From positions 1-23,309 of the IMG/VR virus record IMGVR_UViG_3300034200_002009: 23,309 bases of DNA; one strand, given 5' to 3'. Both the position numbers and the translations under genes were made by a program. Positions 2,398-17,231 of the stretch are shown one piece after another. The notes under the pieces were generated by a model. It saw only the letters and a program-made list of their open reading frames with translations, was not told the origin of the DNA and made no database searches. This DNA comes from a virus. Position 1 is the first letter of the stretch, and the number at the start of each line of letters is the position of its first letter.

Positions 2398-3000
2398 ATG
2401 CCCATCGACATTCCCGAGGACCGGAACAACGCCCCGACGACGCCCGTGATGAAGCGTCAGGCGATCGGCGAGCGCACCCGCATCGCCATCGTCCGCTTCG
2501 AGCAGCGCCCGATCAAGAAAGACGGCGCCGACGTCATCAACCCCAAGACCGGCAAGCCCCGCCAGGAACTCGTCGTGCACGGCCTGGCGATGGAGGGCAC
2601 CACCGCCCCCTGCGGCAAGGGCGACGAGCAGTGGGTGCCGACGCCCAGCACGCCGGTGCGCGTCATCCTGAAGGGCGCCGGGTTCGGCGCCTGGATTGAG
2701 GCCCGCAAGACGCACCGCAACGGTTCGATGCGTGTCGGCGACGAGCTGCGCATGGCCGTCGAGTACGCCCAGGCGTACGACTCCGACGGCGGCATCCGTG
2801 GCGGCCAGATCACCGACCAGGCCGACGTCGTCGCCCTGCGCATGAAGGGCACCACCGTCGGCTTCTACGGCCCGGTCAAGTTGGCCGAGGGCAGCGACGC
2901 CACCATGATCGCCGCCGCCGAGCGCGCCTACCTCGACGCCACGTCGATCACGCTCGACGCCCCGAAGCCGACCGCCGCTGCTGCAGACGAGGCGTGGTGA
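2398..3000 (+). CDS. Hypothetical protein next to exonuclease, possible ssDNA-binding/recombination accessory, 200 residues
   Basis: ATG 2398 has the best ribosome binding site nearby (AGGGAG). The protein has a disordered N-terminus, a long segment of alternating hydrophobic and charged residues (RIAIVRFEQRPI, then RVILKGAGFGAWIEA, DELRMAVEYAQAYD, ADVVALRMKGTTVGFYGP) that reads as beta-rich, and a low-complexity acidic tail ending DEAW. Beta-rich core plus acidic tail, directly behind an exonuclease, is reminiscent of phage OB-fold ssDNA-binding proteins. That is inference from architecture and context, since no diagnostic motif is visible. The stop at 2998-3000 overlaps the next ATG. Confidence 0.75.
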   Translation: MPIDIPEDRNNAPTTPVMKRQAIGERTRIAIVRFEQRPIKKDGADVINPKTGKPRQELVVHGLAMEGTTAPCGKGDEQWVPTPSTPVRVILKGAGFGAWIEARKTHRNGSMRVGDELRMAVEYAQAYDSDGGIRGGQITDQADVVALRMKGTTVGFYGPVKLAEGSDATMIAAAERAYLDATSITLDAPKPTAAAADEAW

Positions 3001-3719
3001 TGGGCGCCGTCGACCATCCGCTCCGGCTCGCTGTCGGCTCGCACGAGGCGGGCAGCGGCAGGGGCTGCGCCATGAACGTCATCTCGTGGGAGAACGGCGA
3101 CACGACCATCACCGACTACCCCGACTGCGCCGACAGGCTGCTGGCAAAGATCGTGCAACGAGTGAACGACACGATCTGCACGCATCGTGACGGTGACCTG
3201 CTGTGCCCGGCGTGCTCGGTCGAGGTGCTCGCACTCGGGCACCGCATCGTCGGCACCGGGACGCATCTGCTGGCCGAACTGGAGCGGCGTCGGGTGTGGG
3301 TGCGTGTCGCCGCCGACCAGGCCCGCCAGGTTGCGCACCTGAACCCCGACCCTCGGGTGATGATTGCGATCCAGGCAGCCGAGGGCTGGTGTGATGGCAC
3401 GGTCTCGACCGAGCAATGCCGTGCCGCCGCCTACGCCGCCTACGCCGCCGCCCGCGCCGCCTACGCCGCCGACACCGCCGCCGCCGCCGCCGACGCCGCC
3501 GCCTACGCCGCCGACACCGCCGCCGCCGACGCCGCCGCCTACGCCGCCGACACCGCCGCCGCCGGCGTCGCCGCCGGCGTCGTCGAGCCAGCACAGCGGC
3601 TTGCACTGGCGCACCGGGCTGTCGACGTGTGGTGCGAGTGGGCCGGGTTCACGCCAGGCACACCCGACGCCGCTGTCACCGCTGCGGCCGTGCAACGGAT
3701 GCTGGAGGTGGCGCAGTGA
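3000..3719 (+). CDS. Alanine-repeat protein with conserved flanking domains, 239 residues
   Basis: ATG 3000 (TGATG overlap, GAGG about seven bases upstream) is taken as start. ATG 3072, preceded by AGGGG, is a good alternative that removes 24 residues. An N-terminal domain carries His and Cys residues (TICTHRDGDLLCPACSVEV, a possible zinc site). A mainly helical segment follows, then about 55 residues of Ala with regularly spaced Tyr, Asp and Thr (units like AAYAADT), and a C-terminal segment (LALAHRAVDVWCEWAGF). The repeat resembles the protein cut by the window start, but with Tyr instead of Trp. The Ala run should be a single long helix. No function is known to me. Confidence 0.7.
   Translation: MGAVDHPLRLAVGSHEAGSGRGCAMNVISWENGDTTITDYPDCADRLLAKIVQRVNDTICTHRDGDLLCPACSVEVLALGHRIVGTGTHLLAELERRRVWVRVAADQARQVAHLNPDPRVMIAIQAAEGWCDGTVSTEQCRAAAYAAYAAARAAYAADTAAAAADAAAYAADTAAADAAAYAADTAAAGVAAGVVEPAQRLALAHRAVDVWCEWAGFTPGTPDAAVTAAAVQRMLEVAQ
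3421..3583 (+). repeat. GCCGCC-rich in-frame coding repeat (Ala/Tyr/Asp/Thr)
   Basis: Tandem units built from gccgcctac, gccgccgac and accgccgcc encode the Ala-rich helix. A larger unit (tacgccgccgacaccgccg) occurs three times. The repeat gives long Arg-only or Pro-only readings in the other frames, which are artefacts. Confidence 0.75.
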
Positions 3720-5626: not shown

Positions 5627-5921
5627 CATTGACATCGTGGAGCGGTTGCGGCTGTACGCCGCTGCCGAGGCGATCCACGCGCCCCTAAACGGCGGCGGGT
5701 TCGGCGTTATGCAAGAGGCCGCCGACGCCATCGAGGACCTGACGGCCGAGCGTGACGCATCACGGCTCATCATCAACGACCTGACGGCCGAGGTGGAGCG
5801 GCTGCGGGCGGCTGGCGACCGCGCCTACGAAGCGATCAATGCCGTGGTCTGTGGTTGGCCTCGGAACGAGATGGCCGAGTTGGCGGCGGCGTACATCGAC
5901 TGGGAGGCCCGTCGTGGCTGA
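5616..5921 (+). CDS. Small coiled-coil protein, 101 residues
   Basis: GTG 5616 has GGAGG at 5605-5609 and shares its start context with the genes at 5342 and 5914. The protein is largely helical: VERLRLYAAAEAI, then a leucine-rich coiled coil (EDLTAERDASRLIINDLTAEVERLRAAG, in two blocks). Similar 'two-helix plus heptad' proteins are common in actinophage early regions and usually stay uncharacterised. It overlaps the WhiB-like gene by eight bases. Confidence 0.65.
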   Translation: MSGDIDIVERLRLYAAAEAIHAPLNGGGFGVMQEAADAIEDLTAERDASRLIINDLTAEVERLRAAGDRAYEAINAVVCGWPRNEMAELAAAYIDWEARRG

Positions 5922-13213: not shown

Positions 13214-13332
13214 AACCTGGCGATCTACCTGCGGCGATGTTGGACAATGAAACCAGCGGCCGCTATCGTCGGTGTAGTCAGCCGTCGTGTGCCCGCAGTG
13301 GCCCGGCGGCTGTGCCATGTCGGGAGTGCTGA
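13210..13332 (+). CDS. 40-residue four-Cys mini-protein
   Basis: GTG 13210 overlaps the upstream stop (GTGA), and its stop at 13330-13332 overlaps the next ATG (TGATG). The C-terminal half is RRCSQPSCARSGPAAVPCREC, with Cys at 22, 27, 37 and 40, a spacing that suits one zinc ion. It lies below usual gene-calling lengths. Tight coupling on both sides and the Cys pattern support it; the binding site before GTG is weak. Function is unknown. Confidence 0.5.
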   Translation: MKPGDLPAAMLDNETSGRYRRCSQPSCARSGPAAVPCREC

Positions 13333-13607
13333 TGCCTGGCCGGAACCGTTCCCACTACAGCGGCGACTATCAGCGCCGAGCCCGTGCGGTGCGCCAGGCA
13401 GCCAACGCCAACCCGCTCACCCGCTGCTGGCGGTGCGGCCGCACGCTCGACGAGCACGGCTCCGGTGTCCGCTGGGACGCTGGCCATCTCCGTGACGGCG
13501 ATCCGACATCGCCGCTCGCACCCGAGGCGAGCAGCTGCAACCGTTCGGCTGGTGCGGCTGCGGGCAACCGTCGCCGTCGTGGGCTTGAGGTGAGTCGCGA
13601 ATGGTGA
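13332..13607 (+). CDS. Small HNH endonuclease ahead of terminase, 91 residues
   Basis: A Cys pair (CWRCG, residues 34-38) and WDAGHLRDGDPTSPLAPE, followed by CNRSAGAAAG, match the small actinophage HNH family that sits next to terminase genes. The His of AGH and the Asn of CN are the likely catalytic and metal residues. In several phages such HNH proteins work with the terminase for cos cutting or packaging. ATG 13332 is coupled to the previous stop. A longer in-frame start at 13287 would overlap that gene. Confidence 0.8.
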   Translation: MPGRNRSHYSGDYQRRARAVRQAANANPLTRCWRCGRTLDEHGSGVRWDAGHLRDGDPTSPLAPEASSCNRSAGAAAGNRRRRGLEVSREW

Positions 13608-13634
13608 CCCCACCCGGGGGGACATGCGTTCCCG

Positions 13635-13648
13635 TGCATGAACATGCA
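13635..13648 (+). promoter_or_regulatory. Operator-like dyad 1 (TGCATGAACATGCA)
   Basis: The arms TGCAT/ATGCA are separated by GAAC and extend to 6-bp arms (GTGCAT/ATGCAC, 13634-13649). It matches dyad 2 in 12 of 14 positions. The identity of a binding protein is unknown. Confidence 0.45.
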
Positions 13649-13716
13649 CACACAGAGCACCCCGGAAACTTCGCCACGTATATTTACCCTGGTAGAGGGG
13701 TTGCACGCTGGCCCTT

Positions 13717-13734
13717 CCGACCGGCGCCGGTCGG
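13717..13734 (+). promoter_or_regulatory. 18-bp perfect palindrome CCGACCGGCGCCGGTCGG
   Basis: Every base pairs with its partner around the centre of GGCGCC. It could be a regulator-binding site or a nuclease/terminase recognition element. No T-run follows, so it is not a standard intrinsic terminator. Confidence 0.5.
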
Positions 13735-13740
13735 CCCGAG

Positions 13741-13754
13741 TGCATGACTATGCA
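13741..13754 (+). promoter_or_regulatory. Operator-like dyad 2 (TGCATGACTATGCA)
   Basis: The arms TGCAT/ATGCA are separated by GACT. It lies 12 bases ahead of the 13766 start and 106 bases after dyad 1, about ten helical turns away. Confidence 0.45.
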
Positions 13755-13765
13755 ATGAGGGGCGC

Positions 13766-14047
13766 ATGACCATCGCTGACGCCGCCAGATCGGGCGACCG
13801 CCGGGCCGCTCTGGTGGCCATGCGGGACAAACTTGCCCGAGACATGGACGACGCACCGCCCGCCGTCGTCGCTCAGATCGCCGGCCGACTGTCGGCCATC
13901 CTCGCCGAGATCGACGGCCTGGCCGTTGCAGGGGAGCGCAGCCTTGTCGACGAACTCAAGCAGCGCCGTGCTGATCGGCTCGCAGCGGCCGAGCCTGCTG
14001 CACCTGCCAAGCGGCCAGCGCGCCAGCGTCGGACCGGAGGCGGTTGA
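13766..14047 (+). CDS. Small helical protein before terminase large subunit, candidate small terminase, 93 residues
   Basis: ATG 13766 follows GAGGGG closely. The protein is helical: RRAALVAMRDKLARDMDDA, then AQIAGRLSAILAEIDGLAV, and a basic Ala/Pro/Arg tail (AKRPARQRRTGGG). Position directly upstream of TerL, with an 80-base overlap, and the short helical form fit a terminase small subunit or a packaging accessory. No helix-turn-helix is evident, so the assignment is positional. A typical actinophage small terminase is longer. Confidence 0.65.
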   Translation: MTIADAARSGDRRAALVAMRDKLARDMDDAPPAVVAQIAGRLSAILAEIDGLAVAGERSLVDELKQRRADRLAAAEPAAPAKRPARQRRTGGG

Positions 14048-15416
14048 TCTCGCTGCCAGCGCCGGGCTTGTGCTCGACGACTGGCAGTCGTGGTCCCTCG
14101 AACAGGGTCTGAGCGAAGCCGAGCGTGGCCAGTTCGCCGCCTTCGAGGTCGGGCTGGTCGTCCCTCGCCAGAACGGCAAGGGCTCCATCCTCGAGGCCAG
14201 ACAACTCGCCGGGCTGTTCCTGCTCGGCGAGCGCCTGCAGGTGCATACGGCGCACGAGTTCCGCACGACGTTCGAACACTTCCTTCGGCTCTGCACCCTG
14301 ATCGAATCGACGCCCGAACTCGACCGCATGGTCGCCCGCATCCGTCGTGGTGCCGGCGAGCAGGCGATCGAACTCAAGACCGGCGAACGGCTCCGGTTCA
14401 TCGCCCGGTCGGGCGGCTCGGGCCGTGGCATGTCGGGCGACACCGTCTACCTCGACGAAGCGTTCGCTGTCACTCCGGTGATGATGGGCGCGCTGTTGCC
14501 GACGATGTCGGCCCGGCCGAATCCGCAGCTGTGGCTCACGTCGTCGGCGCCGATGTCGTCGAGCGTGGTGCTGCACCAGTTGCGCCAGCGAGCGATCGCT
14601 GGCGACTCGCCCCGGCTGTTCTACGCCGAATGGGGCAACGATGAGGGCGTCGACCCTGACAGCGACGTAGCGGTCGCCAGGGCGAATCCTGCGCTCGGCA
14701 TCCGCATCCCGATCGAGTTCATCAGCGCCGAACGGGAGGCAATGCCAGCGGGCGAGTACCTGCGGGAGCGCCTCGGCGTGCCCGATCCGCTCCCCGAGGA
14801 CTCTGCTGCTCGTCCGGTGAAACTGCCCGCCGACGCCTGGTCGGCGACGGTCACCTACGACCAGGTGCCGATCAACCCCGGCGAGATCGGGCTGGCGTTC
14901 GACGTGTCGCCGGGTGGCGAGTGGTCGTCGGTCGCCATCGCCGCCGGGTCGCTCACTGACCCGTACGTCGAGGTGATCGAACATCAGTCGGGCACCGGCT
15001 GGCTGCCTGGCCGTCTGGTCGAACTGGTGCAGAAATGGCAGCCGACGTCGCTGATCTGCGACTCGGGCGGCCCGGCCGGCTCGGTCGTCGGCGCCGTTAT
15101 CCACGCCATGCGCCTGGCTGGCATCTCGTCGGACCTGCTCCATCAGGCGACGTTCGGTGAGATGAAGCAGGCGTGCGGTGCCTTCTACGCCGATGTCGTC
15201 GAGGGTCGCCTACGTCGCCCACCGAACCAGGGTCCGCTCGACAACGCTGCGGCCGACGCCGCCGAGCGCCGCCTGGGCGAGTCGTGGGCGTGGGACCGTC
15301 GTAACGCCACGGTGCCCATTTCGCCACTGGTGGCGGTGACGCTCGCCCGGTCGGTTCTGTCTGCGGTGTCTGCTGCCCCCGAATCCCACGCCTGGGCTTC
15401 CTATCTCGACCTGTGA
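13968..15416 (+). CDS. terL: Terminase large subunit, 482 residues
   Basis: The packaging motor ATPase and nuclease is recognised by Walker A PRQNGKG (66-72), Walker B VYLDEAF (160-166), a conserved LTSSAP coupling stretch (190-195), and nuclease-domain acidic strands AFDVSPGG (Asp312) and LICDSGGP (Asp365). The N-terminal GSQRPS block and LDDWQ (36-40) are usual in actinophage TerL. GTG 13968 is chosen because it begins directly before LIGSQRPS; an ATG at 13833 in the same frame would add 45 Ser/Pro-rich residues that look like an out-of-frame reading of the previous gene. The start lacks a clear ribosome site, so coupling to the 13766 gene is likely. Portal and capsid genes follow. Confidence 0.93.
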   Translation: MLIGSQRPSLLHLPSGQRASVGPEAVDLAASAGLVLDDWQSWSLEQGLSEAERGQFAAFEVGLVVPRQNGKGSILEARQLAGLFLLGERLQVHTAHEFRTTFEHFLRLCTLIESTPELDRMVARIRRGAGEQAIELKTGERLRFIARSGGSGRGMSGDTVYLDEAFAVTPVMMGALLPTMSARPNPQLWLTSSAPMSSSVVLHQLRQRAIAGDSPRLFYAEWGNDEGVDPDSDVAVARANPALGIRIPIEFISAEREAMPAGEYLRERLGVPDPLPEDSAARPVKLPADAWSATVTYDQVPINPGEIGLAFDVSPGGEWSSVAIAAGSLTDPYVEVIEHQSGTGWLPGRLVELVQKWQPTSLICDSGGPAGSVVGAVIHAMRLAGISSDLLHQATFGEMKQACGAFYADVVEGRLRRPPNQGPLDNAAADAAERRLGESWAWDRRNATVPISPLVAVTLARSVLSAVSAAPESHAWASYLDL

Positions 15417-15423
15417 GGTGATG

Positions 15424-15564
15424 ATGCGCGATCGACTGACCTCGCTGCTCGAGATCGCCTCGGGTGTCGCCATCGTCATCGGTGCCGCCTGCGCATCGTT
15501 CGCCCTCGGCTGGGTCGTCGGTGGCGTGCTCGGTCTGGTCTACGCCTGGCGGCTCGCCCGATGA
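15424..15564 (+). CDS. 46-residue putative membrane peptide
   Basis: GAGG at 15415-15418 stands about five bases before ATG 15424; ATG 15421 and GTG 15418 are in-frame alternatives. After RDRLTSLLEI, residues 11-42 are almost all small or hydrophobic (SGVAIVIGAACASFALGWVV, then GVLGLVYAW), which gives one or two membrane segments. The stop overlaps the portal ATG (ATGA). Tiny membrane proteins between terminase and portal are not rare; function is unknown. Confidence 0.6.
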   Translation: MRDRLTSLLEIASGVAIVIGAACASFALGWVVGGVLGLVYAWRLAR

Positions 15565-17231
15565 GTCTGCTCTTCCGCACCCGCCCGGCCGTCGCCGAGC
15601 GCAGCCAGATCGGTTTCGCCGAGTACACGAAGCTCATCGAGCCGTGGCTTCCGTGGTTCACGCAGAAGCCGACCAACCGGGAGACGACCGAGCGCACCCT
15701 CGCTGGGATGACCCGTCATGCCCATTCGACGAACGGCGTAGCGTTCTCGTGCGCCGCTGTGCGCATGCAGGTGTTCTCCGAGGTCACCTTCAAGTGGCAG
15801 GACAAGGCGACGAAGCGGCTGTACGGCACGCCCGATCTGTTGCCGCTCGAGCAGCCGTGGGTCGGCGCTGGCAGCGATGACCTGCTGGCCCGCATGGAGC
15901 AGGACGCCACCGTGGCGGGCAACTCCTACTGGGTCGACGAAGGCTCAATGGTTCGTGACGACCGGGTGAGCCTGCTGCGGCTGCAACCGGAGTACGTCAC
16001 CATCGTTCTCGAGGTGGTCGAGCATCGTCTCGGCGGCAACCTCGGCCGCAAGAAGGTCGGCTACGTCTACGCCGAGCCCGATCAGGAACCGGTCTATCTC
16101 GACGTCGCCGAGGTGGCGCACTTCGCTCCGCTGCCCGATCCTCGGGCGCAGTACCGGGGGATGTCGTGGCTGTCGGCCGTGCTGCCCGACGTCGACATCG
16201 ACACGTCGTTGCAGGACTTCAAGCAGAACTTCATCGCCAACCAGGCGACGCCGAACCTCGTGATCTCGTTCGATCCGACGGTGTCGCCGGAGCAGTTCGC
16301 TCGGCTGACCGAGGTGATCCGGTCGAAGGCGGCTGGCACGGCGAACGCCGGCAAGACTCTTGCCCTCGGTGGCGGTGCCGACGTGAAGGTGGTCGGGTCG
16401 AACTTCGAGCAGCTCGCCATCAAGGCGGTGCAGGGTGCGGGCGAAACCCGCATCGCCTCTGCCGCCGGTGTGCCGCCGGTGATCGTTGGTCTGTCCGAGG
16501 GTCTGTCGGGTTCGTCGCTGAACGAGGGCAACTACGGCCAGGCGCGCCGCCGGTTCGCTGACGCCACGATGCGCCCGAACTGGCGCAGCGCCACGACGGC
16601 GCTGGCGACGTTGGTGACGCCCCCCGATGGCTCTCGGCTCTGGTTCGATACGGCCGATGTCGCCTTCCTCCAAGAGGATCAGGCCGACGACGCAACGATC
16701 CGTGAGGCGCATGCTCGCACGATTCGCGCGCTGGTCGATGCCGGTTTCTCGCCTGAGGCGGCGGTGTCGGCGGCGACCGACGGCAACTTCGATGGCCTCG
16801 GTGCCTCGCACTCGGGCCTGTTCTCGGTGCAGTTGCAGCCTCCCGGTTCAGGCACGGAGCCTGCCCGGTCGGCGCTGGTGCCGCTGGCCGACGAGGTGCG
16901 CACCGCTGCGCCCGAGATGCACATCCACCTGCCGGAGACGATCGACGTGCAGATGCGCCAGGAGCCGATCATCATTCCGGCGCCGGTGGTGAACGTGCCC
17001 GCTCCGGTGGTGAACGTGACTGTGGACCCGACGCCGATCGAGGTCGCCGCTCCGGTCGTGAATGTCGCTGCCCCTGAGGTCACGGTGAACGTGCCGACGG
17101 TGCCGGTGCAGTTGTCGATGGAGATGCCCGAGAGCGAACCGGAGACCGAGGGCCCCGAGCGCAAGAAGGTGACCTTCCGTCGTGACAAGGACGGCCGGAT
17201 CGTGTCGGCCGAACTGGTCGAGGAGGACTGA
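15561..17231 (+). CDS. HK97-type portal protein with beta-repeat C-terminal tail, 556 residues
   Basis: The protein forms the dodecameric DNA entry ring at one capsid vertex. Portal hallmarks are an N-terminal AFSCAAVRMQVFSEVTFKW block, AGNSYWV, the Pro-rich strand HFAPLPDPRAQYRGMSWL, FKQNFIANQATPNLVI, GSNFEQLAIKAVQ, and AAGVPPVIVGLSEGLSGSSLNEGNYGQARR (given in parts). The core ends near residue 430. An acidic, repeat-rich tail follows, with APVVNV-like strands (about residues 472-515) and a charged end (KKVTFRRDKDGRIVSAELVEED, in two blocks). The tail is not part of a basic portal and may be an interaction or assembly element. ATG 15561 is coupled to the preceding gene. Confidence 0.92.
   Translation: MSLLFRTRPAVAERSQIGFAEYTKLIEPWLPWFTQKPTNRETTERTLAGMTRHAHSTNGVAFSCAAVRMQVFSEVTFKWQDKATKRLYGTPDLLPLEQPWVGAGSDDLLARMEQDATVAGNSYWVDEGSMVRDDRVSLLRLQPEYVTIVLEVVEHRLGGNLGRKKVGYVYAEPDQEPVYLDVAEVAHFAPLPDPRAQYRGMSWLSAVLPDVDIDTSLQDFKQNFIANQATPNLVISFDPTVSPEQFARLTEVIRSKAAGTANAGKTLALGGGADVKVVGSNFEQLAIKAVQGAGETRIASAAGVPPVIVGLSEGLSGSSLNEGNYGQARRRFADATMRPNWRSATTALATLVTPPDGSRLWFDTADVAFLQEDQADDATIREAHARTIRALVDAGFSPEAAVSAATDGNFDGLGASHSGLFSVQLQPPGSGTEPARSALVPLADEVRTAAPEMHIHLPETIDVQMRQEPIIIPAPVVNVPAPVVNVTVDPTPIEVAAPVVNVAAPEVTVNVPTVPVQLSMEMPESEPETEGPERKKVTFRRDKDGRIVSAELVEED
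16979..17107 (+). repeat. APVVNV-type in-frame repeat in portal tail
   Basis: About five units of the form (A/P)APVVNV, AAPVVNV, APEVTVNV occur in tandem; the DNA cores ccggtggtgaacgtg are exact in two adjacent copies. The strands would suit a triple-beta or collagen-free fibrous fold. Confidence 0.6.

Follow-up and report, generated by a model that had tools for sequence, protein, structure and literature searches.

Predicted ARG boxes on both sides of a putative cos site suggest an accessory role for host ArgR in phage DNA packaging

At the locus described here, the gene of a small HNH-type endonuclease is separated by a gap (13608-13765) from the genes of the small and large terminase subunits, an HNH-gap-TerS-TerL order such as is found at the cos site of HNH-type tailed phages (Table 1). 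The window, that is the whole stretch of DNA analysed, is the complete virus record of 23,309 bp. The gap had been singled out in a sequence-only reading as the only long one; it is real, but others of 136, 144 and 398 bp are present in the gene set, which is provisional. When the DNA of the whole gap was searched against cultured phages, no match was obtained. Elsewhere in the window, a WhiB-family protein is encoded by the phage at 5926-6342 (PF02467, E 8.7e-21), and an ORF rich in Ala/Tyr/Asp repeats (AADTAAYA-like), with no assigned function, lies at 2994-3719.

Table 1. Genes and sequence features at and around the predicted cos gap of the window
Feature	Position	Strand	Remarks
Small HNH-type endonuclease gene	13287-13607	+	phrog_1808, weak, E 0.0022; start uncertain
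Predicted ARG box 1, TGCATGAACATGCA	13635-13648	.	HNH (right genome end) side of predicted cut
GAGCACCCCGGAAACT, stretch up to predicted right genome end (~13670)	13655-13670	+	Compare L347 contig end, ...CCGGAAACT
Predicted left genome end (cos cut)	13667-13674	+	17 or 10 bases before TTACC, from contig starts of relatives
Core element TTTACCCTGGTAGAGGGG	13683-13700	+	~16-33 bp inside predicted left end; TTACC part conserved
Perfect 18-bp palindrome CCGACCGGCGCCGGTCGG	13717-13734	.	Chance-level, unconserved
Predicted ARG box 2, TGCATGACTATGCA	13741-13754	.	Terminase (left genome end) side of predicted cut
Terminase small subunit	13766-14047	+	phrog_1459, E 1.5e-10
Terminase large subunit, conserved part	14040-15416	+	phrog_9, E 9.5e-56; true start slightly upstream
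Portal protein	15561-17231	+	phrog_12, E 6.9e-33

Two dyads are found in the gap, identical in 12 of 14 positions and with starts 106 bp apart, as had been noticed from the sequence. They are the only exact occurrences of TGCATN4ATGCA in the whole 23,309-bp record, for which 0.027 would be expected per 23.3 kb under a first-order Markov null, and no pair spaced by 80-140 bp was produced in any of 150 genomes simulated under the same null; the pair is thus far above chance and the 14-mer has no further copy in the record. With two mismatches permitted the pattern falls to chance level (9 seen for 6.1 expected). The closest relatives keep the same layout of the gap, which supports the earlier view of the dyads as spaced, conserved, binding-site-like elements ahead of the packaging genes. 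The perfect 18-bp palindrome is likewise real, but it is probably incidental: 0.39 such palindromes are expected by chance per genome, none of eight relatives checked has one at the matching place, and L155 has a different hairpin. A packaging role of the palindrome, which had been suggested as an alternative, is not supported in view of this chance-level frequency and absence from relatives; the link to packaging lies in the dyads and in the core between them.

The position of the genome ends was examined through the relatives of the large terminase (the best 80 of 562 confirmed ones and 7 others, 87 loci in all). A contig start lies within the fetched flank in 65 of these loci, and 32 of the 65 starts fall 250-499 bp before TerL, for a uniform expectation of about 5.6 (Poisson 1.5e-14, to be read with the contigs being partly non-independent). 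Seven contigs (L240, L243, L244, L246, L250, L254 and L259) begin exactly 17 bases before TTA[CT], and two more (L256 and L284) begin 10 bases before the same element, which reads TTGC in L284; these first bases were judged by eye, an automatic regular expression being misled by earlier TTAC strings, and the two distances leave the length of the overhang unfixed. At the other side, the L347 contig ends 56-57 bases past its HNH gene, at ...CCGGAAACT, with the variant dyad CGCATGAACATGCG ahead of this end, and a contig of the same metagenome (L125) begins before TerS, 17 bases before TTACC. In the record G015 (33,848 bp) the dyads are at 42-55 and 33775-33788, one per end. Transferred to the coordinates of the window, these ends would lie between the dyads, at ~13670 (right) and at 13667 or 13674 (left). 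In six other members of the terminase family (L294, L296, L308, L310, L311 and L270) the contigs start, by eye, about 10 bases before TCTCTCC and not TTACC, apparently a second type of cos core within the same family.

The cultured phages BaileyBlu, CallinAllBarbz and EmiRose have their packaging genes first and their HNH gene last, and the matching gap therefore spans the genome ends; the HNH gene of the window is predicted to be the last gene of the linear genome. The contigs of relatives were also found to start or stop inside the gap, and a nearby position of genome ends was indeed one of the points that the earlier reading had recommended for checking. On the basis of these ends in relatives, the window contig itself running through the gap, 13608-13765 is very probably a cos site cut at ~13667-13674. 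By analogy with HK97, whose small terminase binds at positions 15-29, the core TTTACCCTGGTAGAGGGG is a candidate small-terminase recognition site. The HNH gene is directly at the cos gap in L123 and in the window, unlike in L121 and L122, where a P-loop kinase-like gene (L121:3107-3562) runs up to it, and gene 1 of BaileyBlu (L136:115-510), annotated as 'WhiB-like', occupies the small-terminase position and is possibly a mislabelled terminase small subunit.

Regarding the identity of the dyads, the ARG box consensus of Streptomyces is given, in the accessible part of the source, as AWTGCATRWWYATGCAWT with the core TGCAT-RWWY-ATGCA (PMC4865122). Box 1 matches this core in full with the centre GAAC, and box 2 in 13 of 14 positions with the centre GACT (RWWY 3/4), while the outer bases AW...WT of the 18-bp consensus are matched at 0/4 in box 1 and 3/4 in box 2. 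The purine and pyrimidine at the edges of the centre are present in 65 of 66 phage dyads (41 of 42 family representatives) as against 66 of 250 dyads of a genome scan. A scoring matrix built from phage dyads only (14 loci) was then applied to 27 actinobacterial argC loci, over the 250 bp preceding the gene. Scores of at least 14 were reached in 18 of the 27 argC regions and in 2 of 237 equal windows of the same loci, and scores of at least 18 in 15 regions and in none of the 237, these controls being mostly coding DNA. The best argC sites lie mostly 25-75 bp before the gene, and many are accompanied by another box at a distance of exactly 20 bp. For S. clavuligerus argC, two 18-nt boxes with 2 bp between them are described in the portion available of PMC3293853. 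Two boxes, TGCACGGTCATGCA and GGTATGGTCATGCA, precede argC in Modestobacter with a spacing of 20 bp, and the same genome carries a dyad-bearing element. The dyads of the window are thus, with high confidence from their sequence, ARG boxes and predicted sites for the hexameric ArgR of the host. The exact 16-mer of the M. tuberculosis operator had no match in the literature as covered. An Arg-box-like sequence is no proof of ArgR binding, since the P1 loxP site, according to the part of the report available, matches an Arg box at 16 of 18 positions and yet was not bound by E. coli ArgR.

A total of 2.9 million viral contigs were scanned, by pattern alone, for two dyads 85-115 bp apart. The yield was 25 stretches, in 23 of which TerL is within ~600 bp of the pair or overlaps it; of the 25, L067 duplicates the L002 family in truncated form and L150 (GC 0.37) is a probable chance match. 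The terminases flanked by these pairs are highly diverse, with identities down to ~24% and, in some, an HNH domain fused to TerL. In 17 of 18 whole records 2-4 exact dyads were present and confined to one place or, in G015, to both ends, whereas a backward control pattern gave zero matches in the 18 records. Additional boxes outside the inner pair are common (for example in L147, L151, L102 and L154). The inner spacings cluster at 103-108, 115-121 and 126-129 bp, with outliers at 139 and 160, and are weakly phased on a helical repeat of 10.5 bp (Rayleigh p ~0.004 for n=18 and 0.03 for the 14 less redundant).

Searches at other spacings gave nine stretches at 116-146 bp, five of them known arrays, and five stretches at 54-84 bp, of which L341-L343 look unrelated. 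The box pair of L337 (10356-10519) is 3' of TerL and that of L338 (9157-9324) is 5.4 kb from TerL, and in both the position of cos may differ. An array of four ARG-like boxes followed by the core TTTATTTACCGGGG, which resembles the TTTACC element of the window, was seen at L340:9129-9222, a locus with no match to the terminase panel. The contig L343 (GC 0.50) has, at 5711-5918, three dyads of the TGCATWWTTATGCA type at intervals of 96-98 bp, next to a helix-turn-helix protein as a possible small terminase; this is perhaps the same arrangement outside actinobacteria.

In prokaryote genomes, 80 stretches matched the pair pattern (many of them in cyanobacteria or metagenome bins), and the 79 other than that of Modestobacter served as a chance control in which some true ARG boxes may be included. 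The Modestobacter genome (sp. VKM Ac-2985, 4.7 Mb) has its sole two exact dyads 103 bp apart (L179), adjoining a Terminase_4 small subunit gene and a gene that is HNH-like by eye, with no Pfam match, and the element is read as a prophage. A slightly stricter pair pattern was found in none of the other actinobacterial genomes of a class sample (0/393) and of a phylum sample (0/395).

The boxes are not a constant companion of the terminase. An exact box no more than 900 bp upstream of TerL is present in 11 of the 87 loci (best 80 of 562 and 7 others) and is not found in 76. In the lineage of the window, the contigs L120 and L246 are without box 2 and box 2 of L127 has one mismatch; the boxes are therefore not essential to this terminase and, together with their presence in 11 of the 87 relatives, these losses point to accessory elements that are gained and lost. 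The ends of 14 cultured actinophages carry no box, either exact or with one mismatch, and in phiC31 one site with one mismatch is located at 29391 of 41,491, away from the ends. In the Corynebacterium phage EmiRose (L140 and L141), the ends are flanked on both sides by dyads of the same halves with other spacers, GTGCATGATATGCAC towards the right end and GTGCAAAGTATGCAC towards the left; these looser dyads were not counted as ARG boxes.

A search for the ArgR DNA-binding domain found none in 14 phage records, while the control detected it in 9 of 14 genomes. With no phage ArgR in these records and with the match to the ARG box, host ArgR is therefore the likeliest binder. ArgR forms hexamers and often binds paired boxes, according to the available portions of PMC4865122 and PMC3293853. 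At the predicted cos site, concatemeric DNA would be cut at ~13667-13674 into unit genomes; the HNH gene would close one unit and the terminase genes would open the next. In the mechanism that we propose, both boxes would be held by a single ArgR hexamer, or by separate hexamers on the two sides, and the ~100 bp between them would be bent or looped, keeping the two sides of cos together. The small terminase, HNH and large terminase would thereby be offered the cut and the TTTACC core, which would help cutting or the start of packaging, and as a by-product packaging could respond to the level of ArgR or to arginine. Such bridging or bending of cos by ArgR as a packaging accessory, which we infer by analogy with IHF at lambda cos and ArgR at cer, is on balance somewhat favoured. 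The identifications of cos and of the ARG boxes are strong, and the packaging role is inferred. As a whole, a cos site with ARG boxes and ArgR as packaging accessory is the best explanation of the locus, to which we assign a probability of about 0.6.

The strongest competitor of the packaging role is a regulation of late transcription by ArgR. In DNA that is circular or joined into concatemers, a promoter of the packaging operon, late or leaky, would then lie between the boxes, and ArgR would loop across it as a transcription regulator. This would be in line with the usual function of ARG boxes, which are normally operators in the literature as far as available, and with Streptomyces promoters having two separated boxes, described in the accessible text of PMC3293853, as well as with the short distance of ~11 bp from the end of box 2 to the small terminase gene and with TATATT at ~13679-13684 between the boxes. 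This last string, which had been read as an AT-rich -10-like patch, is indeed present, but it is not kept as such in relatives and the gap has no sigma-70-like site in a promoter scan that is of limited value in actinobacteria, the sole match being at 13241-13269. Moreover, in relatives the physical ends of the genome lie between the two boxes, the pair keeps its position across many terminase types, including those with HNH fused to TerL, and transcriptional control appears rather unlikely to be the explanation. No intrinsic terminator was found in the gap.

The dyads could instead be bound by a packaging protein of the phage, either the small terminase or an HNH dimer, their identity with the ARG box then being coincidental. 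Their location at cos, the HNH proteins of several dyad loci and the binding of the HK97 small terminase 15-29 bp inside the cut, in the source as available, are compatible with this proposal. The motif, however, is constant while small terminases vary (phrog_1459-type, Terminase_4 in the Modestobacter prophage, none seen) and TerL identities fall to ~24%, and a matrix made only from phage dyads detects the argC operators of hosts, which makes a packaging protein an improbable binder. Resolution of dimers or concatemers, in which the boxes would act as at cer, where ArgR with XerCD is an established accessory factor in the material available, and not in packaging, is considered very unlikely, the core between the boxes coinciding with the genome ends. 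Finally, a lysis-lysogeny or late-gene switch worked by an unseen phage repressor or a WhiB-like protein, as first suggested and as the phage-encoded WhiB-like protein might invite, has a negligible likelihood, the sites matching the ARG box of host ArgR instead, being common to unrelated phages and being confined, in each of 17 records, to a single location (the cos-like region or both ends).

The reading of the locus as a cos site assisted by ArgR can be compared with several known systems. In the accessible part of a work on lambda, IHF bends the DNA of cosB for the small terminase and the yield is ~30% without IHF (PMC4856287). In both cases, a site for a host DNA-binding protein, here a predicted one, is beside the cut and the host factor may help without being essential. 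However, lambda cosB consists of repeated R sites with IHF on one side only of cosN, whereas the two dyads of the window, as matches to the ARG box, lie one to each side of the predicted cut and belong to a packaging module that contains HNH. The HK97 cos, with the HNH protein gp74, is similar in the HNH gene adjoining the terminase genes and in the placing of the conserved element, which here spans ~+16 to +33, counted from the predicted cut, close to the TerS site of HK97 at 15-29 bp inside the cut; the HNH protein also stimulates cutting in the available text (PMC11331095), which in its accessible portion makes no mention of ArgR sites at the HK97 cos. The actinobacterial operators argC, argG, argH and arcB share the core TGCAT-RWWY-ATGCA with the phage boxes, and one matrix finds both, but hosts use two boxes 20 bp apart whereas the phages have single boxes or small arrays ~100-130 bp apart around the cut. 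At ColE1 cer, ArgR has an architectural role as far as the source is available (PMC2409434), and would be likewise an architectural, non-regulatory factor on mobile DNA. The difference is that cer serves recombination and not packaging. SPP1 is a pac (headful) phage. Its pacL and pacR are also recognition sites at a packaging site, contrasted with the one-sided cosB of lambda in the part of the source available. There they are described, differently, as TerS-binding sites with no sequence in common.

Searches of full-text literature, with most subscription journals outside coverage, gave nothing on ArgR in phage packaging among the papers listed, the nearest being the P1 paper. The use of a host architectural factor at cos is rated as known; ArgR in this function and the two-sided layout are rated as new. 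If true, ArgR would be the second host architectural protein in phage DNA packaging, after IHF, and the binder of a conserved and so far unexplained phage DNA element would be named. The paired ARG boxes provide a sequence marker by which cos could be located in contigs of uncultured actinophages, and a clear question is opened, whether loss of argR or the supply of arginine alters phage packaging. Taken together, these results suggest that phages with flanking ARG boxes borrow a metabolic regulator of their host to help package their DNA. More tentatively, many actinophage lineages with different terminases may have surrounded their cos with ARG boxes of the host, and ArgR might then be a general cos-synapsis factor of actinobacteria, a counterpart of IHF by which packaging would be tied to the arginine state of the host.
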